This document shows, piece by piece, positions 14,770 through 35,300 of a stretch of 43,432 bases of DNA (its first letter is position 1; the number at the start of each line of letters is the position of its first letter). The stretch comes from Rhodocyclaceae bacterium. GTDB taxonomy: Bacteria > Pseudomonadota > Gammaproteobacteria > Burkholderiales > Rhodocyclaceae. The translations under genes were made by a program, and so were the position numbers. The notes beneath the pieces are model-generated. The model did not search any database, was not told the DNA's origin, and saw only the letters and a list, made by a program, of their open reading frames with translations. The stretch lies in assembly GCA_020445805.1 (NCBI GenBank), contig JAGRFX010000005.1:12223-55654 (forward strand), given 5' to 3'.

Positions 14770-15420
14770 TCAGCGATCGGGCGCGGGCGTTTCCCGAGGT
14801 TGGGAATCCGGGGGCGTCGAATCCGGGGAAGGTGCGCCAGCTGCGGTAGGCGGTGGGCGCACCCGGGACAGGGCTTCCTGCCATTCCCACAGGGCTGCCT
14901 GGGCCTTCTGGCGGTAGGGGTCGTCGCGGGCCCCACGGTGGAGGTAGGTCTGCATGGCACCGATGGCGCCGGGCAGGTCCGACTGGGCTTCGAGCGATAC
15001 GGCCAGGCCGTAGTAGGCGTTGGCCTGCTCGGGGTTGAGTTCGATGGCGGTCGCGAAGAAGTCGTGGGCGGCAGACCACTGCTGGAGCCCGATCAGGGCG
15101 AAGCCCATATTGACGTGTGCGTCCGGCAGCCTGGGCGCCAGTTGCAGGACCCGATGGAACGCCTTCGCGGCATCGTCGTATCGCCGCGCGTGAAGCATCA
15201 GCACCCCCTGGTTGAAGCGCTGGTCGATCTCGCTGCGCCGCTGCATCTCGACGTGGCCGCGGGTGCGCAGGGAGCTCACGGTATCCACGATGTCGTCGTA
15301 GCGGGCGATCAGCAGGCCGCCGACGAGGACACCGGCAATGGTCAGGCCGATGGCCCGGGGGCGGGCATCGGTGCGTGCCCTAGCGGACAGCCGGGTCGTG
15401 GAGTCTGCGGCTTTGGACAT
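14770..15420 (-). CDS. Membrane-anchored TPR protein
   Basis: A 216-residue protein with one N-terminal TM (residues ~24-42) and three or so TPR units between residues 65 and 175 (NQGVLMLHARRYDDAAKAF, NMGFALIGLQQWSAAHDFF, AYYGLAVSLEAQSDLPGAI), ending in a Pro-rich tail. The first 41 bp overlap the end of the haem-copper-like gene upstream. It resembles NrfG/CcmI-type TPR proteins that hold apocytochromes for haem attachment, and its place directly after ResB, CcsA and the haem-copper-like gene supports a chaperone role in cytochrome biogenesis; this remains inference. Confidence 0.82.
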   Translation of the reverse strand: MSKAADSTTRLSARARTDARPRAIGLTIAGVLVGGLLIARYDDIVDTVSSLRTRGHVEMQRRSEIDQRFNQGVLMLHARRYDDAAKAFHRVLQLAPRLPDAHVNMGFALIGLQQWSAAHDFFATAIELNPEQANAYYGLAVSLEAQSDLPGAIGAMQTYLHRGARDDPYRQKAQAALWEWQEALSRVRPPPTAAGAPSPDSTPPDSQPRETPAPDR

Positions 15421-16729
15421 GGGGCCAGAGGCGGGAGAGGATCAGGTAGGAAAACAGGATGATGCCGACGGTGGCCAGCAGCCCCCCGATGCCGAGCAGA
15501 ATGCGCGAGAAGGTCTCGACATTCCAGAACAGGCCCAGTTCCCCGGGGGTCTTGCGGGGAGCGCCCATCAGACCCGCGCCGGCAAGGCCCAGCATCATGA
15601 GGAGAATGCCGTATCCATAACAGCCCAGCTGAAGCCGTATCCAGCGGGGTGTCGGTGCGCTCACGCCGAGCCGGGGCAGGATCAGCAGCGCCATCGCCAT
15701 GAAGGCCAGCGTGACGGAGCCGATCGTGCCATGGTAATGGGCGGTGACCAGCGTCGTCTGGCCGTTGATGAGAATCCCCAGGGCAATCCCCACGGCGAGC
15801 AGCAGGATGGAGAGCCGCAATCCGGGACGCGATCTGGCCGTTCCTCGTTTGCCGAACAGCAGGGCGAGCAAAAGCAGGGGCGCCGGCCAGGATGCCCATT
15901 GCATCAGGCGCGTATAGCCGCGCAGGTAGTCGTCGCTGTCGGGGGACCGCAGCAGGCCCATGGCGAGGCCCGCCAGGATCGGAAGGAAGGCCAGCACATA
16001 GGCCAGGGCGATCCTGCGGGGGGGCAGCTGGAGCGACTGGGCCGGCGTCAGCGCCACCCAGCAGACCATCATCAGGATCACCAGCACGAACTGCCAGGTA
16101 TGGCCGGCGCCCCAGAACAGCAATTCGAAGTAGGCGTGGCCCTCGTGAGCGGCCGGAATGCGCGCTGCGGCAAGCGCAAGGATGATCGCGCAGGCCACGA
16201 AGCCTGCGGCCGCCAGCCACAGTCCCAGGGCCTGGGCGTCCCGGTGTCCCGCGACGCGGCCAAAGGGCAGCCGGAACAGGGCCAGCACGGACACGCCGAG
16301 GACGGATGCCCCGAAGACCGAGAGTCCACTGAGGAAGGTCGGCGAGTCGATCACCGGCAGATAGTTGCTCATCAGGGGCTGGGGCTGGCCGACCGCGATC
16401 GACAGGGTGATCCCCAGCGCGCCCAGGGCCGCCACGCTCAGCAGCAGCCCGTCGAACTGCGACGGGCTCGGTCGCTGGTGCAGTGACCACAAGGTGGCCG
16501 CGAAGGCCATGAACCACACCCCCTGGGAGAGATTGACGTGGAGCGTCAGCGCGACCTTGTAGAACTCCGCACCGGGAAAGAGCTGTCCGATCGCGGGCAC
16601 CCGGGCCAGGGCGATCAGGATCGCAAACAGGCCGGAAACGGCGACGGCGGAGGCGGCGAAGGCCAGCCAGCGGACGGTCATCGCAGGCACCTCTGCCGAA
16701 GGAGGAGAGCGCAGGGTGGTCGGCGTCAT
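15380..16729 (-). CDS. Haem-copper-oxidase subunit I-like membrane protein lacking the CuB His pair
   Basis: A 449-residue protein with about 12 predicted TMs and a subunit I-like histidine layout. H64 is in LTLHVNLSQGVWF (helix II, low-spin haem ligand), H210 in WGAGHTWQF (helix VI) and H331/H333 in TAHYHGTIG (helix X). The adjacent His-His pair that completes the CuB site in helix VII is not found; the corresponding region reads LMQWASWP (276-282). It therefore probably binds haem but lacks a normal CuB or FeB centre, so it is unlikely to be a terminal oxidase or a standard NO reductase. The start ATG overlaps the ccsA stop (ATGA); an internal ATG at 16681 is possible. Encoded after ResB/CcsA and cytochromes, it may act in quinone-side electron transfer or haem handling. 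Confidence 0.78.
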   Translation of the reverse strand: MTPTTLRSPPSAEVPAMTVRWLAFAASAVAVSGLFAILIALARVPAIGQLFPGAEFYKVALTLHVNLSQGVWFMAFAATLWSLHQRPSPSQFDGLLLSVAALGALGITLSIAVGQPQPLMSNYLPVIDSPTFLSGLSVFGASVLGVSVLALFRLPFGRVAGHRDAQALGLWLAAAGFVACAIILALAAARIPAAHEGHAYFELLFWGAGHTWQFVLVILMMVCWVALTPAQSLQLPPRRIALAYVLAFLPILAGLAMGLLRSPDSDDYLRGYTRLMQWASWPAPLLLLALLFGKRGTARSRPGLRLSILLLAVGIALGILINGQTTLVTAHYHGTIGSVTLAFMAMALLILPRLGVSAPTPRWIRLQLGCYGYGILLMMLGLAGAGLMGAPRKTPGELGLFWNVETFSRILLGIGGLLATVGIILFSYLILSRLWPHVQSRRLHDPAVR

Positions 16730-17538
16730 ACGGCGCCCTTGTGGGGTGATTCGGACACGAACGGAACGCCGAAGAAAGTCAGGAAGGCGAGCACGAAGAC
16801 CGCCACGATCATCCAGGCATTACGCACCGGCTGGGGCCGGAAGGTGAGCCGCAGGTGGATGGCGATGGCCAGCAGCAGCCAGGTGATGAAGGACCAGGTT
16901 TCGAGCGGATCCCACGCCCAGTAGCGGCCCCAGGCGTCCTGGGCCCAGATCGCACCGGTGATCAGCATCAGGGTGTCGAAGACCAGCCCCAGCGCCATGA
17001 AGCGGTAGGCCAGCTCGTCGAGCCGCCGGTCGTCCGGCAGGCCCGCGAAGCGGGTCAGGCCAATGCCGAATCGCCGCATCAGCACGACACCTGCGATGCC
17101 GAGGGCGACCAGGGTGACGCCGAGGAAGACCTTGGCCATGCCGATGTGGATGAACAGCCAGGGGGTGCGGTAGGTCGGGGGGAAATGACCCTCGCCGGGG
17201 TGCGCCAGCATGAGCCAGCCCATCATCACGAACATGATCGGCATCACCACCGCAGCGCTCGGCCGCAGCTTGGGGATGCGCCAGTAGGCCAGCGCGAACA
17301 CCAGCATCAGGCTCCAGACGTTGGAACTGAGGATCTCGAAGAGCGTGATGAACGGGCCGTGGCCGACCCGTGACCAGCGCATGCCCAGCGAGAGGGTCTG
17401 CAGCACGAGGCCCAGGGCCATCAGGCCAAGGACGATCCGCTCGCGGTGGCGGCCGAGCGCCACGCCGAAGATCGCGATCACACCGCTCAGCACATAGGCG
17501 ACGATCGCCGCCCAGAGGACCTGGAGTTCGGATTCCAT
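16726..17538 (-). CDS. ccsA: System II cytochrome c biogenesis protein CcsA/ResC
   Basis: A 270-residue protein with eight or so TMs and the WWD-type haem-binding loop GRYWAWDPLETWSFITWL near residues 205-222, with conserved histidines nearby (H57-region RVGHGPF and HIRL-type segments). CcsA/ResC exports haem and, with ResB, forms the System II cytochrome c synthase. The frame extends upstream, but the ATG at 17538, 2 bp after the resB stop, gives the family-like N-terminus. It forms a pair with the ResB-like gene upstream and overlaps the haem-copper-like gene downstream. System II next to a System I (ccm) set is unusual and suggests dedication to the multihaem cytochromes here. Confidence 0.92.
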   Translation of the reverse strand: MESELQVLWAAIVAYVLSGVIAIFGVALGRHRERIVLGLMALGLVLQTLSLGMRWSRVGHGPFITLFEILSSNVWSLMLVFALAYWRIPKLRPSAAVVMPIMFVMMGWLMLAHPGEGHFPPTYRTPWLFIHIGMAKVFLGVTLVALGIAGVVLMRRFGIGLTRFAGLPDDRRLDELAYRFMALGLVFDTLMLITGAIWAQDAWGRYWAWDPLETWSFITWLLLAIAIHLRLTFRPQPVRNAWMIVAVFVLAFLTFFGVPFVSESPHKGAV

Positions 17539-17540
17539 GC

Positions 17541-18554
17541 TCAGCTGTCCCAGGGCTTGTTCATGAATTTCTGCCAGAAATGGGTGCCCAGGCTCAGCGC
17601 AGCGAGGGCGCCGGCCGCGGCCAGCCAGGGGAGGGTCCAGTCGTAGAACACGTTGTACCCCATCCACGAGCGCAGGCCGACCAGCCTCAGTGTCCCTTCA
17701 GGGAATGTGGCGGTCTGCCCCGGTGCGAGGATGCTGCGATGCTCCCCCTCCCGCACGATGACCCGGTAGTCCGCAGGCATGCGGAACTGCGACGAGGTCT
17801 CGGGGTCGAGGATCACTTCGTCGAAATCGAGCATGATCCATATCGTCCGGTCGGTACCGGGCAGCTGCCATTCACGCGCCTGCCTGAGCTCGTGCAGGGG
17901 ATAGGAGGGCAGATGGACCGAGCCGAGTTCCGTCTGGCCGTTCGACCCCGTGAATTCGAAGGTCGGAGCGAAACCCTTGTTGTAGCTGGTGTAGAAGCGA
18001 TAGCCGCGCGTCGTCAGCGGGTATTGGTCACCGACGACGGACTCCCGCCAGCCCCCGTCCTCGTCCAGCCAGCGGACCGTATTTCGGGTTGCACCCCGGA
18101 AGAGTCCGGGATCATAGTCGATGCGGAATCCGCCATTGATGAAGCGGACCCGGTCGAGTGAGCCTGCATGGTAGGGGCCCGCGTCCACGGTGTTCAACTG
18201 CCCCTCGAAGGTCGCGCCCTCGGTCAATTCAAGCGTACCCCGGAGGTAGGTGAGGCGACCGACCGCGACGAGGGCGAGCAGTCCGCAAAGGCTCAGGTGG
18301 AACACCAGCAGGCCCGACTGGCGCCTGAAGGCCGGGTTGGTGGCGACGGAGGCGATCAGGTTCAGCGACAGGCCGGCCAGCGGCACGGCCAGGGGCCAGC
18401 TGCGCCACTGCTCGAAGTTGTAGGCCAGCACAATGGCCGGAAGGAGCAGGGCCAGCAGCGCGAGCGTGCACTTCAGGGACGCGGCCGCGCGCAGCAGTCT
18501 GAGCAAAGCGGGCGGCTCGACGCCGCCCGCTTCGATCCCCGGGAAGGCGCTCAT
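17541..18554 (-). CDS. resB: System II cytochrome c biogenesis protein ResB-like
   Basis: A 337-residue ResB-family protein. N-terminal hydrophobic segments (about residues 28-45, 52-70 and 85-100) are followed by a beta-rich periplasmic domain (GTLELTEGATFEGQLN, GFRIDYDPGLF, SWMGYNVFYD) and a final TM near the C-terminus. ResB holds apocytochrome and presents its CXXCH to CcsA. At 337 residues it is shorter than many ResB proteins (often 430-600). The ATG at 18554 overlaps the stop of the 11-haem cytochrome gene in an ATGA junction, so synthesis of cytochrome and assembly factor is probably coupled. CcsA follows after 2 bp. Confidence 0.88.
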   Translation of the reverse strand: MSAFPGIEAGGVEPPALLRLLRAAASLKCTLALLALLLPAIVLAYNFEQWRSWPLAVPLAGLSLNLIASVATNPAFRRQSGLLVFHLSLCGLLALVAVGRLTYLRGTLELTEGATFEGQLNTVDAGPYHAGSLDRVRFINGGFRIDYDPGLFRGATRNTVRWLDEDGGWRESVVGDQYPLTTRGYRFYTSYNKGFAPTFEFTGSNGQTELGSVHLPSYPLHELRQAREWQLPGTDRTIWIMLDFDEVILDPETSSQFRMPADYRVIVREGEHRSILAPGQTATFPEGTLRLVGLRSWMGYNVFYDWTLPWLAAAGALAALSLGTHFWQKFMNKPWDS

Positions 18555-21127
18555 GGCGGACTTTGGCACATGCTCCTCATCCAGTCCTTGCCCGATCCTG
18601 TCCGGTTGGTGCTGTTGCCGTTGGTGGAGTTGATCCGGTCTGCCGCGCCCTTGCTCGACGAGCCGCAGTCATTCTCGCCCCAGTTGCCGCTGTTGGCGAA
18701 GTTGCGGATCTTGTTCTTCGCTTCCAGGTAATAGGGGCCGTTGGAGTAGTAGTCGCCGCTGTTGTTGATGGCGACTTCCTTGCTGCCCGATTGGCCGGCT
18801 TCTGCTCCGATGTCGTTGAGGTTCACCAGGAACATCTTGTTCTTCCAGCCATGGGGCACGGCCACGTGGCACCAGGTGCATTGCAGCGACTGACCGATCT
18901 TGTCCCGGTGGTGGCCGTGGAGGTTGTCGAAGGAGCCGTTGCGGAAGCCGGTTCGGCCGGCCGCTGCGTTCTTGTCGCTGGCGTTGTAGACGGCGGAATT
19001 GTGGCACTTGAGGCACAGCATGTTGGATGTGCTGCCGCTCGCATCGTTGTCCCACACGCCCTTCAGGATGAAGTTGTTGGTGGAGCCATGGGGGCCCCAC
19101 GGATTGCTGCCCGGGTCCACCGTGTTGCCGCTGGTCGAGCTGCCGTGGCAGTCGGAGCAATACATGGTCTGTGTGCCGACGCTGGTGAAGGGAGAGAGCC
19201 ACGGGTTGCTGCCGCTGATGCCGCGACTGGAGAGGTTCCGCCCCGTGGCGCCAACCACCGGGTGCCAGCTTCTGACGTTGTTGGTGGAATAGGCCGAGTC
19301 GGCGCCGGTATTGCCGGAGGCACTGTTGGGCTGGAACTCGCGTGCCTGGTTCGTGTAGCGGTCGAAGTTCTGGTGGCCGTTGGCGTTCGTTCCGCTCAGG
19401 CTGGTCGCGCTGTCGAGGCGCGGGCGGGTGGAGCCGTTCGGGAAGAAGTTGTCGTCGGTGTAGCCGTAATCGGAATGGCACTTCAGGCAGATCTGGTACT
19501 CGCGGGTCACGTAGGACTCCGACGCAGCGGTGCTGGTGGATGTGCCCGGGTCGCCCCGCTTGACCGTGTAGGAACTGGGAAGCGCGAAGAAGGACGAGCC
19601 GCCGTAGATCGGCTCGACGCCCCACTGCCCGCGCAGGGCCCCGGAAATGGTGTTCGAGTGAGGCGCAGTGTGGTCGTGGGTCGCGCGGCTGCTGGACGAG
19701 GTATTGGTCTGTGTCAATGCCCCCGGCAGGCCATTGCTATTGCGGATGATGCGGTGCGGGTTGTGGCAGTCGGTGCACTCGGCGTGCCGGTTGGTGAGAT
19801 TGCTCACGCCCAGGTTGGTGCGCGGCTCGAGAAAATCCTTGCCACAGGCGGTGGTCGCGCCGGTGCAGTTGATGAACGCGTCGGAGAAGTTCGAACTGAT
19901 GTCGTGCCGCTCCTCGTTGGCGGGCTGCTCGGACGAGCGAATCGGCATGTGCCGCGACAGGTTGAAGTCGGTGCGGATATCGGGGACCGTACCGTTGCCG
20001 GAATTCACCACGCTCAACGCCGAGGTGGTATGGCATTGGTAGCAGGTTTCCTCAAGGGCAGGATTGCCGCCGGACTTGGGCGTCAGCACGCTGTCGGTGC
20101 CCTCCCGCAGGAGCCGGCGCGCCCCCTGGACCGTGTGGGTATCGTGGCAGTTGAGGCATGCCGCCTTCCACACCGGTTGTCCCGTCGGAAACTCGCGCAG
20201 GCTGGCCGAGGCCGTCTTGTAGGTTTCGTCCGCCGTGATCTGATTGGCGTGAACGGAAAATGCCCAGCTCCCATTGCCCTGGTTCTTGTCGTGACAGGAC
20301 AGGCAGATGATGTCGGAGTCGGGATTGTGGGTGTCGGTCGGCTGGGCTTCCTGAAACCGGTTCTGTCTGAGGAACTTCTGGGGCCCCTTGGTGGATTCCT
20401 GGGTGTCGAACAGGTGAGGGTCGTGGCAGCTCGCACACTGGACCTGCCCCTCGCCGGCACCGCCCGTGGGCTCCAGGGGAATCTCGGGCTTGAATCCAGC
20501 AGATCGCACCCCGAGGATGGACCCATCGCCCGGCCATCGCTGCAGCCCATCCACGGGGCGCAATTCGCCATCGCGACTCGCGAGCGTGCTGTCGTAGGTC
20601 AGGGAGATGGGGTGGTCGTTGGTGAGGTCGGTGCCGAGATCCCGCGTGAATCCGGTGGAAGCGCCCTGGCCGGCGGGCATGGTGCCGTCTCCTGCCGTGC
20701 CCGTCATGGCAAACGTCACATCCGTCTGGCCTGCCTGGACGTTGACGTTGCCGATGGCCAGGGTGCCATCGTGACAGGACAGGCACAGCTTCGAGCTGCC
20801 TCCGGGCTGAGCCAGGGCCTGCCCGCGAATCACCTCCGCGTCGAGGGTGGATGAGGTGTACGGGGTATATGCCGTGGCACCGAGTTCCCGGTTCCACAAG
20901 GGGGCGGGTGCCGCCGTCGTCGAGTGATGAGGCGTATGGCAGAACACACAGACTTCGGTCTGCGAGGTGGCAACGACATTGCGCGAGGGCGCGCTGCCCG
21001 TGGTGCGTCCAACCTCCGTGGCAGAGAAGTTGTGCTTGGTGGCGCGAATATCGGAAATCTTTTCCGCCGATGCGGTGCCGAAGGCCAGGCCCAGCAGGGC
21101 GCAGAGGAAGAGGCGAGTCGCTGTCAT
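18551..21127 (-). CDS. Secreted 11-haem c-type cytochrome
   Basis: An 858-residue protein with a signal peptide (1-21) and eleven CXXCH motifs, in order CVFCH, CLSCH, CASCH, CLSCH, CLNCH, CYQCH, CTDCH, CLKCH, CSDCH, CLKCH and CTWCH. The first ~280 residues repeat the pattern of the tetrahaem proteins at 30184 and 32409: KHNFS, CVFCHTPH, PLWN, CLSCHDG, NDHPI, CASCHDPH. After this OmcE-like module come seven more haems, many followed by CHxxH or CHNPH-like distal histidines. No lipobox or TM is present, so the mature protein is periplasmic or exported to the cell surface. It lies 1 bp after an NHL lipoprotein gene and overlaps resB. It is the largest electron carrier of the window and a candidate terminal surface cytochrome. 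Confidence 0.93.
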   Translation of the reverse strand: MTATRLFLCALLGLAFGTASAEKISDIRATKHNFSATEVGRTTGSAPSRNVVATSQTEVCVFCHTPHHSTTAAPAPLWNRELGATAYTPYTSSTLDAEVIRGQALAQPGGSSKLCLSCHDGTLAIGNVNVQAGQTDVTFAMTGTAGDGTMPAGQGASTGFTRDLGTDLTNDHPISLTYDSTLASRDGELRPVDGLQRWPGDGSILGVRSAGFKPEIPLEPTGGAGEGQVQCASCHDPHLFDTQESTKGPQKFLRQNRFQEAQPTDTHNPDSDIICLSCHDKNQGNGSWAFSVHANQITADETYKTASASLREFPTGQPVWKAACLNCHDTHTVQGARRLLREGTDSVLTPKSGGNPALEETCYQCHTTSALSVVNSGNGTVPDIRTDFNLSRHMPIRSSEQPANEERHDISSNFSDAFINCTGATTACGKDFLEPRTNLGVSNLTNRHAECTDCHNPHRIIRNSNGLPGALTQTNTSSSSRATHDHTAPHSNTISGALRGQWGVEPIYGGSSFFALPSSYTVKRGDPGTSTSTAASESYVTREYQICLKCHSDYGYTDDNFFPNGSTRPRLDSATSLSGTNANGHQNFDRYTNQAREFQPNSASGNTGADSAYSTNNVRSWHPVVGATGRNLSSRGISGSNPWLSPFTSVGTQTMYCSDCHGSSTSGNTVDPGSNPWGPHGSTNNFILKGVWDNDASGSTSNMLCLKCHNSAVYNASDKNAAAGRTGFRNGSFDNLHGHHRDKIGQSLQCTWCHVAVPHGWKNKMFLVNLNDIGAEAGQSGSKEVAINNSGDYYSNGPYYLEAKNKIRNFANSGNWGENDCGSSSKGAADRINSTNGNSTNRTGSGKDWMRSMCQSPP

Positions 21128-21128
21128 T

Positions 21129-26766: not shown

Positions 26767-26812
26767 GTATAGATGCCTCATTTGAGTATAGAAATCGGTG
26801 TTTGCGCTCGTC

Positions 26813-29020
26813 CTAGAAGTTGCCGAAACTTCTGCTGACACGGAAGAGCAAAAGAGCATTTTTCCTGCCATCTACCTCGGCCACACGCATTTTCAGTTGG
26901 GTGTCGAGGCGACCGACGCGATAGTCTAGGTCCTGCTCGAGGATGCGTGAGACCCGATCGCGATTGCCATCGGGATCGCCGAATTCGCGCTCGTTGGTCG
27001 TTGCCGTGGATGCGATGAAGCGCAGCGAGTAGCGCAGATCACGAACGCCGAACGCCCGGGAGTGGAAATACGTGACGCTGCCGTTGGTCGAGGTGTTCGT
27101 ATCCGACGTCTGGGTCGTGTCGATGGCGAAGGGGTCATCCACGGTGTCCTGGCTGACCGTCGTCTCATTGGCGAAGTCGTCCTGCTTTCGCCAAGTCCTT
27201 TGTATGGTCAGGTTTCCGGACAGGGCCGCATACTGAGAGGTTATCCAGTTGCCATTGAACTGGAAGCTGGCCATCTGGAATCGCGACACCTGGTCGCCAA
27301 AAGAGCGCGAGTCGGTCAGGCTCAGGCCCATCATGGCCTGACTGGCCGCACTGGGCATGATCTGGTAATTCAGAGATGCTGAATGATTGAGCGTCGACGT
27401 GGACAGCGCTTCGTCGCCGAAGCCCTTGATGTGTGAAAGGGTCTGGTTGCCACTGGCGCTGATGGTCGAAATCGCGCTCGGCTGCCAGTACGTATTCAGG
27501 GAATGGAAGACCGAACCACTGAGGCTTTGCGACGAGTTATTGGCGCCCGAGACGTTGCTCGCGCTGCTCGTCAATCCCCAGTTGTAGGAAACTCTCCCGA
27601 AGTTGAGAGGGTCTCCGTTGTATGTCGCCGTGAGAAATTCGGTGGTGATGGTCTCGTGATCGCCATCGGCCACCGTGAACATGTTGGCCGTGGCCGAGGC
27701 GCCAAAGCTCAGGTTTCTGCTGTACCGATAGGTGCTTCCGCCGGCCAGGGACAGGCTCTCGTTGAGCGGTCCGCCGTTGGTCTCCGACAGGGCCAGACGG
27801 ACACTCGCATTGGCGGTCCAGGGAGAATTCAGCGGGTTCCAGTTGGCTGCGGAATACGCCTGGAGGGTCTGCAGGTCGGACGCCGTGGCCGAGCCCGAAG
27901 GCGTGCGCTTGTCGTAGAGATAGCTCGCATTGGAGGTGACCGTGAGGTCCGGCCGCAACCGCCGGTAGTGGTTCGCCGTTAGCAGGGCGATATCCGAATT
28001 GAAGCCATCGTCCCGCTGGTTGTGGCTCAGGCTCGCATTGGCGTCCAGTGTCTGGTTGTCACCCTGAACCCGATAGCCGCCCGCAAGGCGGTGAACGGTG
28101 TCGTCGCCGAGCTCCGATTCCTGGATGCGATCGAAATCGTAGGTGGCGAAGGTGCTCCATTCTCCGCGGGCAGGGCGATAGTCCTGTCGCGCGCTCAGTC
28201 GGTAGGTCTTGCGATTGCGATCGAAGGAGGTGGCATCCGTCCGGCTGTCCGTCGCGCGCAACTCCAGAGAGAACGGGAAGCGACTCACCGGGAAGATATT
28301 GGCCCCGAGCGTGCCGGATACGCCGACATTCTCGGAGCCGCCACTCACCTGACCCGTGCTGCCCGTGTTGCTCGAGTCCGTCATGACGACGGTCGCGCCG
28401 CCATTGATGAGCGCAATCCACGGGGCCAGGATGTAGGAACTGGCCTGCGCTCCAAGCTCATAGGCGTTGGTTTCCGACCAGGCGCTGTCATCGGTGCGGA
28501 ATCGCGAGCGCGTATAGGCGATCTGGCCGCCCCAGCGGATCGGGGCGAGCCCGTAGCGCTTCTCCTTCGGACGGTTCTCGTCCTCCGGCGGCGGTGAGGT
28601 TGAAGCGCGAGCGGCAGGCTGCGGACCCCGTGGGGCGGGCTCTTCGTCTTTCCGCGGCGAAACGGTGACGGTTGCGCCTCCGGTCGACTGCGCCAACAGC
28701 AGCGATCTGCTTGCCGCCGTCCGGAGCAGCCCGGGCAAAACCCCTTCGATCTGATCCGGCATCGGCGCCGTGGCCGCATCCGAAATCAGAGGCAGCGTAA
28801 CGGGTCGAACGACCGCATCGGGCGCGCGATTGCCCTCCGACGCATGCCCAAGACTGTACGAGAGCTTCAGTCGGGGCAGCGACAGGGCGTCGCTGTGCGG
28901 GTGTTCTATGGCTTGGGCCGGCTGCGCGAGGGTCGAGCCGACGAAGAACCCCGCCAGGCCCAGGGGCGACAGCGCAAATGCGGCTCGACGGGACGAGCGG
29001 GATGGCCGGTGGGGCTTCAC
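26813..29020 (-). CDS. Outer-membrane beta-barrel, candidate porin of a porin-cytochrome conduit
   Basis: A 735-residue protein starting with GTG at 29020. Residues 1-37 form a long signal peptide (cleavage QA-IE). A disordered Pro-rich stretch (about 120-155) follows, then about 560 residues of alternating polar/aromatic strands (for example RFPFSLELRATDSRTD, YRLSARQDYRP and DTQLKMRVAEV), ending in the terminal phenylalanine SFGNF expected for BAM-inserted barrels. Length and strand count suit a barrel of 20 or more strands, like MtrB/PioB or the Geobacter OmbB/ExtI porins. I see no clear family motif such as the CxxC of MtrB, so homology to MtrB itself is doubtful. Flanked by a PPIase and periplasmic multihaem cytochromes, it is the likely outer-membrane sheath of the electron conduit. 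Confidence 0.85.
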   Translation of the reverse strand: MKPHRPSRSSRRAAFALSPLGLAGFFVGSTLAQPAQAIEHPHSDALSLPRLKLSYSLGHASEGNRAPDAVVRPVTLPLISDAATAPMPDQIEGVLPGLLRTAASRSLLLAQSTGGATVTVSPRKDEEPAPRGPQPAARASTSPPPEDENRPKEKRYGLAPIRWGGQIAYTRSRFRTDDSAWSETNAYELGAQASSYILAPWIALINGGATVVMTDSSNTGSTGQVSGGSENVGVSGTLGANIFPVSRFPFSLELRATDSRTDATSFDRNRKTYRLSARQDYRPARGEWSTFATYDFDRIQESELGDDTVHRLAGGYRVQGDNQTLDANASLSHNQRDDGFNSDIALLTANHYRRLRPDLTVTSNASYLYDKRTPSGSATASDLQTLQAYSAANWNPLNSPWTANASVRLALSETNGGPLNESLSLAGGSTYRYSRNLSFGASATANMFTVADGDHETITTEFLTATYNGDPLNFGRVSYNWGLTSSASNVSGANNSSQSLSGSVFHSLNTYWQPSAISTISASGNQTLSHIKGFGDEALSTSTLNHSASLNYQIMPSAASQAMMGLSLTDSRSFGDQVSRFQMASFQFNGNWITSQYAALSGNLTIQRTWRKQDDFANETTVSQDTVDDPFAIDTTQTSDTNTSTNGSVTYFHSRAFGVRDLRYSLRFIASTATTNEREFGDPDGNRDRVSRILEQDLDYRVGRLDTQLKMRVAEVDGRKNALLLFRVSRSFGNF

Positions 29021-29067: not shown

Positions 29068-30090
29068 TCAACCGTTCTCAGCCTTGAAAGCGGGGAAATC
29101 CTGGGTGTTGATCTCCACGGAGTAACGCGTGGGCAATTTCTCCAGATAGTTCTCCCAGGCACGCTCGGCACGATCACGGGCGTACAGGTCACTGGCACGA
29201 TCGTAAACGCGTTCCAGGGTGTGGTGGGTCGAAGGCTTGCGTCCCAGCAACTGGAAGACCGCGACACCTTCCAGGATTCGGATCGGCTCCGATACGTCGT
29301 TGATCTTCAGGTCATCGAGTTGCTTGGAGAGGTCTTCGGGCACCATGCCACGATGGATGTAGCCCAGGTCGCCCCCTTTCTCTGCCGAGACGTCGGCGGA
29401 CTGAAGGACCGCGAGGTCTGCGAACTTCGCGCCGCCCTTGATCTTTTCGACGAGTTTGTTGCCTTCGTCGCGCGCGGCCTGCCAGGTTTCCGATGTCGAA
29501 GATGGATCGACCTTGAGCAGTATCATCGCGAGTCGAACCTGCTCGGGCTCGGTGAACTTGTCGGGGTGTTTCTCGTAGTAAGACTTGACCTCGGCCCGCG
29601 TCGGCTCGGGAAGCGTCTTGATTCGCGACTCCATGCGCGTCCGGATCGTGTCGCGGGCCAGCTTTGCCCGGAGCTGCGGCAAGACGGTCTCGCGGCGCTC
29701 CTGCCATGCTGCGCTGTCCTTGTAGCGGGCCTCGTAGCTGGCGATCTGCTCGTCAACGCTGGCCATGTCTGGCGCGACGCCGAGCTTGGCGGCTTCACGC
29801 TCAAGCAGGATGTCGTTGATGAGCCGATAGCCGACGGAGCGACGGACCTTTGTCACTTCGGCTTCCGGAGGCTGCCCGTGGTAGAACTTGTTTCTCACGG
29901 CCTCATTCAAAGCGGCCAGGTATTGTTCGCCTGAAATTTCCACCCCTTCGACCACAGCAAAGCGCGAGGGCAATTGTGCTGCCGCGCGGCCATGCGCGGC
30001 TGCTTGCTGTGCGCTGGCCGGATTGGCCTGCAGGCAAAGTCCGCTGGCGAGTGCAATGGTCAAGGCGAAGACGTTGAGGTGGCTTTTCAT
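29068..30090 (-). CDS. Periplasmic parvulin-type peptidyl-prolyl isomerase (PpiC/SurA-like)
   Basis: A 340-residue protein with a signal peptide (1-28), a SurA-like helical N-domain (about 45-175) and a PpiC rotamase domain (about 182-285) with the typical QVRLAMILLKVDPSS, SADVSAEKGGDLGYIHRGM and IRILEGVAVFQLLGRKP elements. A helical C-terminal tail follows. Such PPIases chaperone outer-membrane barrels and secreted multihaem proteins. The gene lies between the OmcE-like cytochrome and the barrel gene, a pairing also known in Geobacter-type electron-conduit clusters, so a dedicated assembly role is likely. A terminator hairpin separates it from the cytochrome gene upstream, so its expression may be low relative to that gene. 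Confidence 0.92.
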   Translation of the reverse strand: MKSHLNVFALTIALASGLCLQANPASAQQAAAHGRAAAQLPSRFAVVEGVEISGEQYLAALNEAVRNKFYHGQPPEAEVTKVRRSVGYRLINDILLEREAAKLGVAPDMASVDEQIASYEARYKDSAAWQERRETVLPQLRAKLARDTIRTRMESRIKTLPEPTRAEVKSYYEKHPDKFTEPEQVRLAMILLKVDPSSTSETWQAARDEGNKLVEKIKGGAKFADLAVLQSADVSAEKGGDLGYIHRGMVPEDLSKQLDDLKINDVSEPIRILEGVAVFQLLGRKPSTHHTLERVYDRASDLYARDRAERAWENYLEKLPTRYSVEINTQDFPAFKAENG

Positions 30091-30183: not shown

Positions 30184-30990
30184 TTACTTCGTGTGGCACG
30201 ACAAGCAAACACCGGAGCCGGCCTGGGAGACACGCAGGAAGGCAACCTGCGGGTTGGTGGCGTCGCCCTTCGACTCAACGTGGGGATCGTGGCAGGAGGC
30301 GCACTCAACCGACGGGCCATCCGTGCCGGAGAAGGCGCGGGTGTAGAGAATCATGTCGGTCTTCTGACGGCCGGCCGTACCCGTATCCACCCACCAGACC
30401 AGGCTTCCGTTGATGACGTCGGAAGTCGGGGCGGTGAAGTCCGTGTCCTTGCACGAACCGGTCGAGGCCGGCGTGGCTGCGCCGTCGGACTGGATGCCGC
30501 CGCCGCAGTACTGGATGCCGATCGGGTGGTCGTTGGTGAGGTCAGCACCCAGGGCGGCGACGCCCTGCAGGATGCCGCCGGACTGGCGCGCACCGGTCCA
30601 GGTGAAGGTCGCGCCGTTGTCGAGGCCCGAGCCCGGCTCGTTGATCATGCTGTCCATGGCCTGCGTACCGTCGTGGCAGGAGAGACAGGCAGCCGACACG
30701 GAGCCCACTGCCAGCACGCTACCGTCGATGGTCGAGGAGTTGGCCGTGCTGTACGTGGTGTAGGTCGTCGAAGGCAGCTGCTTGTTCCACAGCGGCGCGG
30801 TCACGCCCGTGTTGGCGCCGTGAGGCGTGTGGCAGAACACGCAGATTTCCTCGGTGCCGGCCGTGAGGTGGTTCTCACCCGTGCCGCCCGTGGAGAGGTT
30901 GTGCTTGGTGGCGGAAATGCCAGCCATCGCGACGCCCGAGGTCACGGCGAGTGTCGCGAGAACGAGCGCTTGTTTCATCTTCGGATTCAT
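30184..30990 (-). CDS. OmcE-like secreted tetrahaem cytochrome (candidate filament subunit)
   Basis: A 268-residue protein with a signal peptide (1-23, AMA-GIS) and four haems: CVFCH (50-54), CLSCH (102-106), CASCH (230-234) and CLSCH (262-266). Spare histidines H30 (TKHNLS), H57 (CHTPH), H155 (NDHPIG) and H237 (CHDPH) match the four distal ligands needed for bis-His haems; H41 is extra. C162 and C180 may form a disulfide. This haem/histidine order and size match the OmcE-type cytochromes, which in Geobacter polymerise into extracellular filaments by sharing a histidine between subunits. A GGGGG Shine-Dalgarno precedes the ATG at 30990. It has a perfect sigma-54 promoter upstream and its own terminator downstream, consistent with high, regulated expression. 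Filament formation is inferred. Confidence 0.9.
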   Translation of the reverse strand: MNPKMKQALVLATLAVTSGVAMAGISATKHNLSTGGTGENHLTAGTEEICVFCHTPHGANTGVTAPLWNKQLPSTTYTTYSTANSSTIDGSVLAVGSVSAACLSCHDGTQAMDSMINEPGSGLDNGATFTWTGARQSGGILQGVAALGADLTNDHPIGIQYCGGGIQSDGAATPASTGSCKDTDFTAPTSDVINGSLVWWVDTGTAGRQKTDMILYTRAFSGTDGPSVECASCHDPHVESKGDATNPQVAFLRVSQAGSGVCLSCHTK

Positions 30991-31072
30991 AAGTTAGACC
31001 CCCTGGTAACCCTCAACAATTTTCGATTCGACCCAACCCTTGGTGTGTGGAGCTGCGTCTGCCCTAAGAGTT

Positions 31073-31233: not shown

Positions 31234-32373
31234 TCACTTCTCGAGCTTTGCTGCGCGCACAGGGGCAAACCCGGCGGTCGGTGCGAGGCCATAGGGACGA
31301 TAGACGTCAACCTTCTTGAACCACTGGTCCACGAAGTAGATGCGCCCGTCGAGATCGATGGCAATGCCCGAGGGGAGCATGTAGCGGCCCGGGCCCGGGG
31401 CCTCGGATCGCTGGCCGATGAACATCAGCAACTCGCCGTCGGGGTTGAAGATCTGAAAGTTGCCGAAGGCGGTGTCGACCACGTAGACATTGCCATCGGG
31501 ATCGGTCGCGATTTCCTTCGGGCGCGAGAAGTTGCCCAGTTGCCTGCCTGCGGCACCGAAGCTGTCGAGGTACTTGCCGTCCCGATCGAAGATCTGCACC
31601 CGGAAGTTGCCGCCATCGACGATGTAGAGGCGACCATCCTTGCCGATGGCAAGGTCGCGGGGCAGGTTGAATTCCCCGGGTCCGCGTCCCCGCTTGCCGA
31701 TGTCCTGGATGCTCGCCCCCGTGTGGGAGTCGAAAACCCTGATCCGATGGTTGTCCGACTGGACCCCGCCAATATCCACGACATACAGCCGATTGCCGTC
31801 GGGCGAAACCGTGACGCTGGTCAGGCGATCGAAGAGGTCGTGGCCACCCACGGTGCGCAGATGGTGGCCGTCGCGGTCATAGATCTGGATGGCCTTTGCC
31901 GATGCGTCCGCCACATAAAGGTTGCCCGCATCGTCGGTGTCGAGCCCAATGGGCTTGACGAGCTGGCCCGGTTCATCCTCGCCGATGGAAAAGAACTTCT
32001 TTTCGGCGAGATCGAACGCCTTGACGTCTCGGCTGGCCGTGTCGGTGACGAACAGCCGGCCACGATTGACGGCCACCCCGTAAGGCTTCGCCAGGAAGAC
32101 ACCTGTGCGGCGTTCGCCCGTCAATGCACGCCGCCACTGGTCGTCCTCGGAATCTTCCAGAACATCGGCCGAACTCAGGATGGTGCGCTCGAAGACGAAG
32201 CGTGGCTCGTCGGGTGGTGCCGGAAACAAGAGTTCGCTGGGTCCCTTCGCGCCCCCTTCACCAGGCGGACGAATCTCGGCGCATCCTGCGACGAGTAGGG
32301 CGCCGATCATGGCGATCGCGGCGCCCGCCTTGGTCAACAGGCTGAGGGAACTTCCGGGGTGGCAATGTCGCAT
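31234..32373 (-). CDS. NHL-repeat beta-propeller lipoprotein
   Basis: A 379-residue protein with a lipoprotein signal (LVAGC, acylated Cys31) and at least six well-formed NHL repeats: PYGVAVNRGRLFVTDTASR, IGLDTDDAGNLYVADASAK, TSVTVSPDGNRLYVVD, RDLAIGKDGRLYIVDGG, KEIATDPDGNVYVVD and SGIAIDLDGRIYFVDQW. Being acylated, it would sit on the outer or inner membrane. It follows the second OmcE-like cytochrome by 35 bp, forming a two-gene unit that repeats the cytochrome/NHL pairing seen at 18551-22205. It ends 243 bp before the next cytochrome gene with no obvious terminator. Confidence 0.9.
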   Translation of the reverse strand: MRHCHPGSSLSLLTKAGAAIAMIGALLVAGCAEIRPPGEGGAKGPSELLFPAPPDEPRFVFERTILSSADVLEDSEDDQWRRALTGERRTGVFLAKPYGVAVNRGRLFVTDTASRDVKAFDLAEKKFFSIGEDEPGQLVKPIGLDTDDAGNLYVADASAKAIQIYDRDGHHLRTVGGHDLFDRLTSVTVSPDGNRLYVVDIGGVQSDNHRIRVFDSHTGASIQDIGKRGRGPGEFNLPRDLAIGKDGRLYIVDGGNFRVQIFDRDGKYLDSFGAAGRQLGNFSRPKEIATDPDGNVYVVDTAFGNFQIFNPDGELLMFIGQRSEAPGPGRYMLPSGIAIDLDGRIYFVDQWFKKVDVYRPYGLAPTAGFAPVRAAKLEK

Positions 32374-32408
32374 GCTGGAAAACCTGACTGATTGGATGGG
32401 ATCCCTGC

Positions 32409-33134
32409 CTACTTGATGTGGCAGGTCTGGCAGAGGATGCCACCGGCCGGCGGAGCTCGGAGGAAGAGCGCCTCATTCGAATGCGGATTGTGACAGCTTG
32501 CGCACTCGATGAACGGGATCTCGCTCCCGTCCGTCTTGTCCAGGCGCACGAAGAGCGGAAGGTCGGATCGTCCGCGCCGCTCCCGATTGACGTCGCGCGA
32601 GGCCCACCAGACAGGACGATTGTCGATCAGCGCGCGCTGGGCTGGACGGAACTCTTCGGCGATCACGAAACGGGCCGAGTGCATGGGGGCGCCAGAGGCC
32701 CGCGCGTCGGCCGCCGCCTGGGCACGCATCTCGGCGCTGCCGGCGCCCCGGTAAGGGACGCCAAACGGGTGGTCGAACGCCTGTCGCGTGATTGAGAATG
32801 CCTGAGCCGAATCGTGGCAGGACAGGCAGGCGATCGATTGCGAACCGACCGCGGTATTGCCGGCCGTTCCCATGCGCCCGATATCGTCGAAGATCGAGAA
32901 GGAGAAATCCGCAGCGAGGCTCGATTGCCACTGCGGCGCACTGACGCGCGCGCCGGCCGTCAGGGTTGGCGTGTGACAGAAGACGCAGATCTGGCCAGCT
33001 TCGTTCGGGGTGAGGTCGATCCGCCCAGAAAGGTTGTGTTTCGTCGTGCGGAGGTCCTGCGCACCCGCGACGAGGGCGGTGCAGAGCAGGAGCAACGAGA
33101 CTACCGATCTGATGGCGGAAGGGGGCAGGTGCAT
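32409..33134 (-). CDS. Secreted tetrahaem cytochrome, OmcE-like paralogue
   Basis: A 241-residue protein. The frame is open 93 codons upstream, but the ATG at 33134 begins the signal peptide (cleavage near VAGA-QD). Four haem motifs, CVFCH, CLSCH, CASCH and CQTCH, are in the same order and context as in the 30184 protein: TKHNLS before the first, CLSCHDS, then DHPFG, and CASCHNPH. A notable difference is that the first motif continues CHTPT instead of CHTPH, so one distal-ligand histidine is missing unless replaced by another (for example the MHS histidine). It is therefore probably a functional variant rather than a second copy. It heads a unit with the NHL lipoprotein, behind a near-perfect sigma-54 promoter at 33397-33412. 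Confidence 0.9.
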   Translation of the reverse strand: MHLPPSAIRSVVSLLLLCTALVAGAQDLRTTKHNLSGRIDLTPNEAGQICVFCHTPTLTAGARVSAPQWQSSLAADFSFSIFDDIGRMGTAGNTAVGSQSIACLSCHDSAQAFSITRQAFDHPFGVPYRGAGSAEMRAQAAADARASGAPMHSARFVIAEEFRPAQRALIDNRPVWWASRDVNRERRGRSDLPLFVRLDKTDGSEIPFIECASCHNPHSNEALFLRAPPAGGILCQTCHIK

Positions 33135-33396
33135 GAATCCGTTTTTCTCGTCTTGTCGAAATTTGCGCCGATGGCTTTCAATTGCTGGAAACGGCTTCCC
33201 ACCCCTGGGAAGGCCCGCCGGATGCATCCTGAGCATCGTCTCTGTCCGGCGGAACTTGAATGCTTTGGCTCCTTGATCGTGAAATCGGTGCAATCTCCAA
33301 GGTCTTGCGCCGGCGGGTCCGGTTTGCCGCCCAATCGACTGCAGACTATCCTCCGCAACGGGGTGCAAGGCCCAGCAATGAGCCGAGAGAATGACT

Positions 33397-33412
33397 AGCA
33401 ACCGACATGCCA
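33397..33412 (-). promoter_or_regulatory. Sigma-54 promoter of the second OmcE-like cytochrome unit
   Basis: The minus strand reads TGGCATGTCGGTTGCT: 11 of 12 informative matches to TGGCACR-N4-TTGCW (only the C at position 6 is T), with correct GG-N10-GC spacing. The expected start is near 33386, about 250 bases before the ATG at 33134. Confidence 0.7.
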
Positions 33413-33430
33413 TGGTGGGTCGACGTTGGC

Positions 33431-33446
33431 CGGTTCGCTTCTTGCA
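33431..33446 (+). promoter_or_regulatory. Candidate sigma-54 promoter of the plus-strand cytochrome pair
   Basis: The plus strand reads CGGTTCGCTTCTTGCA: GG and GC spaced by 10, a perfect TTGCA half and a degenerate -24 half (9 of 12 matches). The expected start near 33457 gives a 20-base leader to the GTG at 33478, just enough for the GGAGAG Shine-Dalgarno. Confidence 0.45.
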
Positions 33447-33477
33447 TTGGCCCCTTCAGTCAATTGGAGAGCTCGTC

Positions 33478-34293
33478 GTGCGCAATTCGAAAGTTTTTTC
33501 GCTGTTCAGTGTCTTGGGTGCTTTGGGCATCTTGCTCGGATCACCGATCAGGAGTGAGGCTGCCGATTCCAGTCGAAGCATCAACCCCGCGCTGCTCTAT
33601 CACAATTACTGTTCTGTCTGCCACGGCGACCGCGGCGACGGAAACTCCAGAGCCAAGAACAGTCTGATCCCGCCGCCCAGGGATTTCACCGCGGGCCCCT
33701 TGCCCGTGGAGTACATGCGCAAGATCGTGGCGGATGGCAAGCCGGGCACGGCCATGGTCGGCTGGAAGACCCAGTTGAACGAGAAGGAGATTGCCGCCGT
33801 GGTGGATTACGTGGCGGGAACCTTCATGTCGGGCAAGGCGTTTTCGGTCGATCCGGACGGTCTCTCCGGCATTTCCGCTCATGGTGGCCGGGAGAAGGAC
33901 GCGCCTGCGCCCAAGCCGGCCGCGCCGGCTCCCAAGCCCGCGCCCACGTCCGGCGTGGACATGGCGGCGCCGATGCCGGCGGGACTCACGGGCGACCCCG
34001 TGAAGGGGGGCAAGTTTTTCATGGGCAACTGCGCGACTTGCCATGGGGAGAAGGGGGATGGCAACGGGCCGCGCGCCTACTTCATCAACCCGGTCCCGCG
34101 TGACTTCACCCTCGAGGGCTCGCGCATGGTCTACAATCGGCCTGCCCTGTTCAAGGCCATCTCGAAAGGCAGCCTGGGAAGCGAAATGCCGGCCTGGGAC
34201 AAGGTCCTGACGCCCCAGCAGATTGCCGACGTGGCCGAGTTCGTGTTCCAGCAATTCATCCAGCACGGTCCGGAAACGGCCAGCGCCAAGTAA
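33478..34293 (+). CDS. Periplasmic dihaem class I cytochrome c
   Basis: A 271-residue protein. I choose the GTG at 33478, preceded by GGAGAG, because it starts a normal signal peptide (VRNSKVFSLF..., cleavage near SEA-AD); the longer ATG version at 33391 would put 29 non-signal residues in front. Two class I haem domains are joined by a Pro/Lys/Ala linker: CSVCHGDRGDGNS with PPPRDFT and GTAMVGW, then CATCHGEKGDGNG with PVPRDFT and SEMPAWD. The methionines in these segments are likely distal ligands. This is the cbb3-subunit-like or alcohol-dehydrogenase-cytochrome-like fold. The stop overlaps the next ATG by one base (TAATG), so the pair is translationally coupled. Confidence 0.9.
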   Translation: MRNSKVFSLFSVLGALGILLGSPIRSEAADSSRSINPALLYHNYCSVCHGDRGDGNSRAKNSLIPPPRDFTAGPLPVEYMRKIVADGKPGTAMVGWKTQLNEKEIAAVVDYVAGTFMSGKAFSVDPDGLSGISAHGGREKDAPAPKPAAPAPKPAPTSGVDMAAPMPAGLTGDPVKGGKFFMGNCATCHGEKGDGNGPRAYFINPVPRDFTLEGSRMVYNRPALFKAISKGSLGSEMPAWDKVLTPQQIADVAEFVFQQFIQHGPETASAK

Positions 34294-35300
34294 TGGGCGG
34301 CTGGAGTCATCGCGTGCGGGCCGGTCTGGCTGTGTCCGCCGCATCGCTGTTGCCGCTCGGCGCCGTGGCCCTGGCGGGTGCCGGGAGCGAAGGTCACGAA
34401 CGGGGCAGGGCGATCTACAATTTTCGCTGCTACTTCTGCCACGGCTACTCGGGCGACGCGCGCACCCTGGCCGCCACCTACCTCTCTCCACCCCCGCGGG
34501 ACTTCGTTGCCCTGCCGCCCGATGGCCTGAAGCGCGACTCCATGGTGAGCGCGGTGACGAACGGGCGGCCCGGCACCGCGATGAAGGGCTTCAAGGGCAT
34601 TCTCAGCCATGAGGACATCGGCCTGGTGGTCGACTTCGTCCGCACCGAGTTCATGGAGCACAAGGCTGCCAATACCAAATACCACACCGTCGAAAACGGT
34701 TGGGCGGATCATGACCGGAACCGGCTGGCCTTCCCGTTTGCGACGGGCGAAATCCCGCTGGATCGGCCCTGGAGCGAACTGACGGAAGACCAGCAGCGCG
34801 GCAAACGGCTGTTTCTCGGGGCCTGCATCTCGTGCCATGACCACGCGCGTACCCTGGATCCGGGCGTGGTGTGGGAGGGAAGACCGGTCTCATACCCGCG
34901 AAACCAGCACGAACCGGGCGTGCCCAGCCGTCCCCCGACCCAGGACGAGGCGCTCGCGAGCGCCAGTCCGTATCTGCTTCACGACGTCGTGCCCAAGATC
35001 GAGAATGCAACCGAACTGGAGCGGGAAGGCGAACATCTCTTCCAGAAGAACTGCGCGTTTTGCCACGCGGCGGACGGGACCGGCAAGAACTGGATCGGCA
35101 GTTTCATGGAGCCGCACCCTAGAAACCTCACGGACCCGGCGTTCATGGCCGGGATGACACCGTCCCGGCTTGCCCACACCATCCGCGAGGGCCTCCCGAA
35201 TACCTCGATGCCGGCCTGGAAACATGTGCTGGAGCCCAGGCAGGTGGACGCGATCGTGGCCTATGTGGGCAAGGCCTTTCATCCACTGAAGGGCGACTAG
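34293..35300 (+). CDS. Periplasmic trihaem class I cytochrome c
   Basis: A 335-residue protein with a signal peptide (about 1-29) and three haem motifs: CYFCH near residue 46, CISCH near residue 177 and CAFCH near residue 255. The first and third belong to class I domains like those of the preceding gene (PPPRDFVALPPDG, GTAMKGF; PRNLTDP, TSMPAWK, then a VAYVGKAF helix). The middle haem is in a different context, followed by HARTLDPG. Because of the shared PPPRDF/GTAM layout, the two genes look like an old duplication. They would form periplasmic or inner-membrane-side electron carriers feeding the multihaem conduit. The 3' end converges on the DUF5666 gene with 89 bp between and no clear terminator. 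Confidence 0.9.
   Translation: MGGWSHRVRAGLAVSAASLLPLGAVALAGAGSEGHERGRAIYNFRCYFCHGYSGDARTLAATYLSPPPRDFVALPPDGLKRDSMVSAVTNGRPGTAMKGFKGILSHEDIGLVVDFVRTEFMEHKAANTKYHTVENGWADHDRNRLAFPFATGEIPLDRPWSELTEDQQRGKRLFLGACISCHDHARTLDPGVVWEGRPVSYPRNQHEPGVPSRPPTQDEALASASPYLLHDVVPKIENATELEREGEHLFQKNCAFCHAADGTGKNWIGSFMEPHPRNLTDPAFMAGMTPSRLAHTIREGLPNTSMPAWKHVLEPRQVDAIVAYVGKAFHPLKGD

Follow-up and report, generated by a model that had tools for sequence, protein, structure and literature searches.

What does a bacterium build from a block of some 20 kb that encodes, nearly without gaps, nine cytochromes together with folding, outer-membrane and haem-attachment proteins? The block lies at positions 14770-35300 of a 43,432-nucleotide stretch from a Rhodocyclaceae bacterium (the window, meaning the whole stretch that was analysed), which covers 12223-55654 of a contig of 55,654 bases; the assembly, 4.78 Mb in 771 contigs, is 81% complete. 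A sequence-only reading had taken the block for a locus of extracellular electron transfer with its own assembly factors. The best explanation, to which we give a probability of about 0.72, is a cytochrome filament of the Uet (undecahaem electron transfer) system with an adaptor, electron carriers and a dedicated maturation line; the sequence evidence behind it consists of gene content, gene order, haem motifs, conservation and linkage to cytochrome-maturation genes. That the block is real, nearly gap-free and conserved is confirmed.

The locus and its likeness to Uet

The haem motif CXXCH occurs 39 times in the six frames of the block, whereas 20 mononucleotide shuffles gave 1.25 on average and never more than 4; 37 of the 39 motifs fall within the nine cytochrome genes. 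On the minus strand, transcription from 33413 down to 8794 would pass a four-haem UetA paralogue, an NHL protein, the tetrahaem UetA, a parvulin-type peptidyl-prolyl isomerase (PPIase) and a 735-residue barrel protein; then a trihaem c7 cytochrome, a fusion of class I and trihaem domains, a helical protein, two trihaem proteins, two NHL proteins and an 11-haem protein; and finally ResB, CcsA, a COX1-family protein, a TPR protein, CcmC, CcmF, CcmG, CcmH and CcmI. A divergent pair of class I multihaem cytochromes occupies the plus strand at 33391-35300, and the whole is flanked by ccmCDE (43430-42473) on one side and by a second ccmC plus ccmFGHI on the other. The features of the electron-transfer part are given below, with fractions that refer to the best 80 of 559 confirmed UetA relatives, a sample that leans to close relatives; rows of at least 30 bits were counted with profiles made from stop-to-stop frames, and these tallies are lower bounds because a locus is cut off 10 kb from UetA or where its contig stops.

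32409-33413, minus: UetA paralogue with four haem motifs, lacking the CHTPH distal histidine (BLASTP to UetA, 31% identity, E 9.6e-26; 23/80)
31234-32373, minus: upstream NHL protein with a lipobox-like N-terminus (PF01436, E 7.3e-28; 60/80)
30184-30990, minus: UetA-type tetrahaem cytochrome of the OmcE nanowire-subunit family, predicted filament subunit (phmmer, profile, haem motifs)
29068-30090, minus: UetB, parvulin-type PPIase, predicted periplasmic folding chaperone (PF13145, E 5.5e-17; N-terminus SurA_N-like, below cut-off; 77/80)
26813-29020, minus: UetC, outer-membrane beta-barrel (AlphaFold model, C-terminal F; 74/80)
26335-26871, minus: UetD, trihaem c7-type periplasmic cytochrome (NCBIfam TIGR04257 nanowire_3heme, E 1.9e-17; PF14522, E 1.7e-14)
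25415-26338, minus: UetE, class I monohaem domain fused to a trihaem c7 domain (PF13442, E 3.1e-15; PF14522, E 9.2e-12; TIGR04257, E 1.3e-17)
24137-25243, minus: UetF, helical protein (structure model; 64/80)
23486-24121, minus: UetG, trihaem c7-type cytochrome (PF14522, E 3.1e-11; 51% to UetE over 139 columns)
23103-23489, minus: additional trihaem c7 cytochrome and UetD paralogue, its gene overlapping both neighbours (PF14522, E 9.2e-15; 64% to UetD over 105 columns; its 59/80 is unreliable, since the profile also catches frames without haem motifs)
22202-23254, minus: UetH, divergent NHL-type propeller (PF01436, E 1.8e-4, weak; 52/80)
21129-22205, minus: UetI, NHL propeller with a lipobox-like N-terminus by a simple pattern (PF01436, E 8.5e-27; 64/80)
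18551-21127, minus: UetJ, undecahaem cytochrome, an N-terminal OmcE-like module plus further haem motifs (11 CXXCH; 51/80)
33391-34293, plus: divergent dihaem class I cytochrome, probable periplasmic carrier (PF13442, E 7.1e-22; 53/80)
34293-35300, plus: divergent class I cytochrome with 3 CXXCH, probable periplasmic carrier (PF13442, E 8.5e-27; 52/80)

All the parts that the sequence-only reading had listed are present: three proteins with an OmcE-like tetrahaem module (30184-30990, 32409-33413 and the N-terminus of 18551-21127), four tri- or tetrahaem carriers of C7 type (26335-26871, 25415-26338, 23486-24121 and 23103-23489), two class I multihaem cytochromes (2 and 3 CXXCH), three NHL proteins (strong matches at 31234 and 21129, a weak one at 22202) and, by Pfam matches, ResB, CcsA, a COX1-family protein and a TPR protein. 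What it had not recorded is that the 18551-21127 protein has 11 haem motifs and that the module continues through the second CcmC (13878-14960) and CcmFGHI (13512-8794), with CcmC/D/E at 43430-42473 on the far side. The "unknown coiled-coil protein" of that reading is UetF, whose model is all-helical (mean pLDDT, the per-residue model confidence, 81; low at the N-terminus), with no Pfam or NCBIfam match and no structural match in the PDB at E <= 0.001.

The Uet cluster of 'Ca. Tenderia electrophaga' is said to go back to Eddie et al. in 2022. In later papers, Uet comprises an 11-haem UetJ, an extracellular tetrahaem UetA, the periplasmic trihaem UetDEG, a PPIase UetB, the NHL proteins UetHI and a barrel UetC, and is called a porin-multihaem cytochrome complex (PMC10734462); uetABCDEFGHIJ is presented as a conserved cluster of the Tenderiales (PMC12575090); and Tel_16515, Tel_16520 and Tel_16530 are annotated as trihaem, Tel_16525 as TPR and Tel_16545 as undecahaem (PMC5371394). 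These tags fit D, E, G, F and J in the order of the window, the assignment of tags to letters being our own. The window has the A-to-J gene content and order, including the undecahaem UetJ, and the Tenderia cluster, known from the descriptions in citing papers, has the same ten functions in the same order as far as the locus tags show. The locus is close enough to be called the Uet cluster of a Rhodocyclaceae-related betaproteobacterium, on the basis of gene content and order set against published descriptions rather than of a direct comparison with the Tenderia sequence. It is an ordinary example of a type of system that has been described but little studied, so the sequence-only reading, to which the combination was not known as a described one, has to be corrected for the core of the locus, which matches the uetABCDEFGHIJ of these same papers. 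The window differs in one extra trihaem gene between UetG and UetH; it also has the upstream NHL protein, the UetA paralogue, the divergent class I cytochromes and, downstream, the series ResB-CcsA-COX1-like-TPR-CcmC-CcmFGHI, a comparison in which Tenderia is represented by description only.

Conservation in relatives, on which the sequence-only reading had made its proposal depend, is found. The barrel gene occurs in 11 of 101 genomes (the window's own and 10 of 100 relatives), and the order of the neighbouring genes is kept in all 10 barrel-bearing relatives, the exceptions being contig ends and one rearranged branch. Among the 80 loci, the closest UetA (L031, 72% identity) is from a Rhodocyclaceae bacterium, and the taxa include Betaproteobacteria, Gammaproteobacteria, Magnetococcales, Nitrospirae and Nitrospinota; no Tenderia record is among these best 80 of 559. 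In a Caldilineales locus (L110), UetA stands alone, about 100 bases from its contig end. These samples overlap: L051 is L020, and L031, L033, L036 and L098 share sequence with L013, L018, L016 and L025.

In which direction would the electrons flow? Uet was defined in a cathode-oxidising organism and has been proposed for iron oxidisers, according to published work, in which the Uet of 'Ca. Tenderia electrophaga' is also reported in Gallionella and Leptothrix and UetJ in the Leptothrix group (PMC13386937); the 80 loci include these same groups (Gallionella, L096; Gallionellaceae, L103; Leptothrix, L078). A locus for electron uptake, from Fe(II), a cathode or partner cells, rather than for export to an acceptor, is therefore to be taken seriously, at somewhat less than even odds: an excerpt of PMC13264449 describes an undecahaem cytochrome in the Mn-reducing 'Ca. 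Dechloromonas occultata', and haem wires can conduct both ways.

Haem-attachment genes and their association with uet

The genes that follow uetJ, and those on the far side of the locus, are these:

17541-18569, minus: short, divergent ResB (System II) of a uet-specific subfamily, 342 residues (PF05140, E 2.1e-8)
16726-17667, minus: CcsA-type haem-handling protein of System II with a WGRYWxWDP motif (TIGR03144, E 4.4e-43, below the CcsB equivalog cut-off; PF01578, E 1.3e-30)
15380-16729, minus: COX1-family membrane protein (PF00115, E 3e-15)
14770-15420, minus: TPR protein, CcmI/CycH-like (TPR_2, E 7.4e-14; PF23914 TPR_CcmH_CycH, E 3.3e-5, below cut-off)
13878-14960, minus: second CcmC (TIGR01191, 188.5 bits, cut-off 186; PF01578), the true start probably being the internal Met100, a guess that gives 261 residues
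11404-13512, minus: CcmF, System I haem lyase (TIGR00353, E 1.9e-233; PF16327)
10870-11397, minus: CcmG/DsbE thioredoxin (TIGR00385, E 1e-56)
10404-10880, minus: CcmH (PF03918, E 1e-50)
8794-10407, minus: CcmI (TIGR03142, E 2.7e-28)
43110-43430, minus: 3' end of the first CcmC (TIGR01191)
42916-43113, minus: CcmD (TIGR03141)
42473-42919, minus: CcmE (NF009729, E 1.2e-60)

ResB and a CcsA with its tryptophan-rich haem motif, the two parts of a System II synthase, are thus both present; the WGRYWxWDP motif is invariant in 7 of 7 rows, and the ResB is the sole PF05140 match in this genome, which is 81% complete. Because the locus sits between ccmCDE and a second ccmC plus ccmFGHI, a System I organism here keeps one System II synthase, tied to Uet.

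How general is this tie? A 12-row profile of the uet ResB matched 10 of the 101 genomes, namely 10 of the 11 with UetC and none of the 90 without; in the eleventh (G035), the 17.4-kb contig with the cluster stops short of where ResB would lie. A second sample consisted of 370 genomes of the class, the window's included. Here, 45 genomes have a full-length UetA among the matches listed (E <= 2e-62; some match at E <= 0.001 exists in 59 of the 370), 43 have the uet ResB and 41 have both, that is, ResB is found in 41/45 UetA genomes versus 2/325 others (Fisher p ~2e-47, relatedness ignored). In 34 of the 41, ResB shares contig and strand with UetA and follows it downstream at 8.5-24.0 kb; in the other 7, the two are on different contigs. 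Both genomes that have ResB but no UetA carry part of a uet cluster at a contig end, G377 with a UetJ fragment beside ResB and G410 with uetB to uetJ. The samples are not independent, since G499 of the class sample shows the same ResB place as G131.

In a third selection, of 40 uet genomes (L031 to L076 minus L047, L051, L059, L062, L070 and L073), all 40 have the uet ResB, a known miss (L051, which is G035) lying outside the 40. In 35 of them, its coordinates are compatible with a place some 7.0-16.8 kb downstream of UetA on one contig (approximate distances), and in five they are not; the figure of 4/80 for ResB in the locus tally is low because those loci end 10 kb from UetA. The COX1-like protein is present in 32 of the 40. 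In 17/40, the uet ResB is followed on its own strand, at a distance of no more than 10 kb, by CcmF, and 10 of these genomes have a further CcmF elsewhere; CcmF matches of any strength occur in 38 of the 40, and matches of at least 300 bits in 37. Among 20 downstream stretches, which were chosen largely for a near CcmF, ResB and CcsA are found in 20, the TPR protein in 19, the COX1-like protein in 16 and CcmF in 15. More distant second copies of a uet-type ResB were also seen (G014 C114 132515, G049 C1 370167, G104 C270 13866 and G121 C86 15335), possibly belonging to a second cytochrome cluster.

The finding that uet nearly always occurs with its own haem-attachment genes suggests that Uet wires need a dedicated assembly line, and this association supports the sequence-only reading of an electron-transfer locus with its own assembly factors, a ResB/CcsA synthase among them. 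Synthases of CcsBA type kept for particular cytochromes have a precedent in Wolinella, where NrfI and CcsA1 are dedicated System II synthases that serve unusual haem motifs. In contrast, a search for such motifs (CXXCK or a long-spaced CXnCH) in the nine window cytochromes found none. Haem load is one guess at the reason for the special synthase.

The protein that the sequence-only reading had called haem-copper-like does belong to the COX1 family, but it is probably not an oxidase. The ligand scheme of haem-copper oxidases includes three CuB histidines, two of them an adjacent pair; in an alignment of 12, His64, His210, His331 and His333 are the only invariant histidines of the COX1-like protein, and the paired CuB histidines are absent, so the assignment as a haem-copper oxidase was rejected. 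A search of PDB sequences gave only a chance match. What, then, might it do? It keeps haem-ligand positions without the CuB pair, and no other obvious inner-membrane redox protein was seen in the block, which would fit an inner-membrane redox partner (dihaem b, quinone-linked). However, its gene sits among maturation genes, and a match is absent in 8 of the 40 uet genomes. We regard this redox role as a credible minority option beside a part in haem maturation.

UetA and the question of a filament

UetA is related to only two PDB entries at E <= 1 by phmmer, 7tfs (E 1.4e-31; E 2.6e-35 with the profile) and 9yuq (E 1.7e-26). We take 7tfs to be the OmcE filament of G. sulfurreducens; 9yuq is entered as 'Putative multiheme cytochrome c' with 16 chains and is possibly another cytochrome assembly. 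UetA aligns with 7tfs over most of its length, haem motifs included, and is longer (268 versus 232 residues in the entry). Its four CXXCH motifs are invariant across 10 alignment rows, and the distal histidines 30, 57, 155 and 237 are kept at 99-100% in 100 rows (duplicates between loci left in), so that all eight haem-ligand histidines of the OmcE type are present along with the four haem motifs. Since the best solved relative of UetA is the OmcE subunit and the eight ligand histidines are kept, Uet is probably a cytochrome-filament system resembling the osc system of Geobacter, in which UetA would polymerise. On two other contigs of the window's genome (C441 and C596; L112 and L113), there are two further OmcE-like cytochromes, in frames of 334-339 residues.

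Of the proteins encoded by the osc (omcS companion) nanowire operon, OscH is a prolyl isomerase and OscD is propeller-like. The operon was reportedly described by Shen et al. in 2025. In two later papers, it is proposed to supply proteins for the folding (OscH), secretion (OscE-G) and morphology (OscD) of OmcS wires (PMC13194489), and eight genes that form a block next to the omcS-like GSU2501 are connected with maturation and secretion (PMC12977616). The window has a PPIase, a barrel and propellers beside a nanowire-type cytochrome, a likeness to osc at the level of gene roles; the subunit is a tetrahaem of OmcE type in Uet and the hexahaem OmcS in osc. The sequence-only reading had likened the locus to the porin-cytochrome clusters of Geobacter, and the osc operon of these two papers looks the closer parallel.

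That UetC is a barrel, the point on which the sequence-only reading could have failed, is borne out by an AlphaFold model in which 28 long strands are seen (pLDDT >= 90 for 431 of 735 residues; pTM, the predicted TM-score, 0.66). UetC has no Pfam match at E <= 0.01; its Foldseek matches are outer-membrane barrels, including the Mtr complex chain 6r2q_B. UetJ aligns with UetA at 33% over 295 columns (BLASTP E 8.8e-35; E 3.1e-31 with a profile, A1), and, because this N-terminal UetA-like module continues into further haem motifs, an adaptor role is suggested for it.

In the preferred explanation, UetA would be folded with the help of UetB, exported at the UetC barrel and stacked into a tetrahaem filament of OmcE type; the osc precedent, the OmcE kinship and the barrel model are the reasons for assigning UetB, UetC and the NHL proteins to the assembly of the wire. 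UetH, UetI and the upstream NHL protein would guide or cap the filament, and UetJ would join it, or the cell surface, to the periplasm through UetC. From there, electrons would pass to or from the inner membrane via the trihaem UetD, UetE and UetG, helped by UetF, and via the divergent class I cytochromes. ResB/CcsA, the TPR protein and the neighbouring CcmC and CcmFGHI would attach the ~37 haems, on top of the housekeeping System I.

Another possibility is a conduit without a filament, in which UetJ or UetA would sit in the UetC barrel as MtrA sits in MtrB and UetA would stay a monomer on the cell surface, as in published accounts of Uet. In favour of the conduit, PMC10734462 speaks of a porin-multihaem cytochrome complex, UetC is a large barrel with an Mtr chain among its structural matches, and the 11 haem motifs of UetJ suffice to cross a membrane. 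However, the nearest solved relative of UetA is a filament subunit, PPIase and NHL genes do not figure in the make-up of PCC3 given in PMC5566968, and loci without UetJ still keep A, B, C, H and I. The conduit is thus considered unlikely. The window shares a barrel and multihaem cytochromes with PCC3, MtrAB and OmbB-OmaB-OmcB but has PPIase and NHL genes and lacks both a decahaem MtrA and a 20-plus-haem PCC3 cytochrome. No 10-haem protein, as in Mtr/Mto, and no 20-plus-haem protein is among the proteins read, and the Geobacter OmbB-OmaB-OmcB, Mtr/Mto and PCC3 types were dropped. Far weaker still is the idea that ResB/CcsA, a widespread maturation system, is an ordinary System II that lies nearby by chance, which we consider very improbable: the strong CcmF matches in 37/40 uet genomes leave no obvious need for it, but its co-occurrence with uet is nearly exclusive, it is placed after the uet genes and it is the genome's only PF05140 match.

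Several observations weigh against a filament with an adaptor and a dedicated maturation line. Polymerisation, export and electron transfer by Uet are predicted only; the TM-scores of the UetC matches in Foldseek are just 0.16-0.40; and the other OmcE-like proteins here (UetJ and 32409-33413) may not polymerise, so membership of the OmcE family alone is no proof of a filament. Loci of the Azoarcus/Aromatoleum type (L034, L037, L038, L041, L021 and L023) have no UetJ within the locus, the region covered here, and UetJ is for this reason possibly not an obligatory adaptor. The COX1-like protein lies within 10 kb downstream of ResB in just 26/40 uet genomes. Four UetA genomes of one family (G188, G311, G400 and G471) are without this ResB, which is therefore not part of every uet cluster: G400 has ccmEFGHI near uetJ in place of ResB, no ccm gene was found in the stretch of G471 that was read, and the stretch of G188 ends inside uetJ.

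In the Azoarcus/Aromatoleum-type loci, UetI leads straight into ResB; in L021, L023 and L154/L155 (for L037/L034), copies of UetD, in some cases accompanied by UetE and UetF, were seen beyond the TPR gene. Other neighbours in the window are, on the minus strand, a 759-residue DUF5666 protein (35390-37669) with GIGGTGAP repeats and repeats of a further 12 residues, of which, in the ten relatives compared, no counterpart next to uet was seen outside the window's genus; a Tll0287-like protein with one CXXCH (8164-8772) beside a thioredoxin-like protein, downstream of CcmI; and a sigma-54 response regulator with a histidine kinase (3898-6938) beside the ccm end. The literature places a comparable regulator/kinase pair in Geobacter at GSU2506/2507, adjoining omcS by locus tag.

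Possible meaning for the maturation of multihaem wires

There are two points that specialists may not have joined, namely that UetA belongs with the OmcE nanowires and that a System II synthase of its own nearly always accompanies uet, in many cases along with part of System I. The word ResB is absent from the main texts of PMC10734462, PMC13386937, PMC12575090, PMC13194489, PMC5371394, PMC5566968, PMC12977616 and PMC5539420, which is weak evidence for novelty as the primary Uet and osc papers lie outside these texts; OmcE is absent from PMC10734462; and, among the 20 of 119 papers listed by a literature search combining nanowires and OmcE with Rhodocyclaceae names, none is on the subject by its title.

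Very tentatively, and with more doubt than confidence, Uet might be pictured as a self-contained nanowire factory: a wire of OmcE type, an osc-like export, UetJ as a base subunit in which a wire module is fused to a multihaem stalk, and a hybrid maturation line in which System II ResB/CcsA, a haem-copper-like protein without CuB and the CcmC/CcmFGHI half of System I serve the same substrates, System II having been acquired or kept by System I bacteria for this one product.

What the explanation given here would mean is that Uet, so far described as a porin-cytochrome complex of iron- and cathode-oxidisers, is placed beside the cytochrome nanowires; the analysis also shows it in many Beta- and Gammaproteobacteria. 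Its tight coupling to one subfamily of ResB would offer a concrete handle on the maturation needs of secreted multihaem wires, and the pair of UetC and ResB could mark such systems in genomes.

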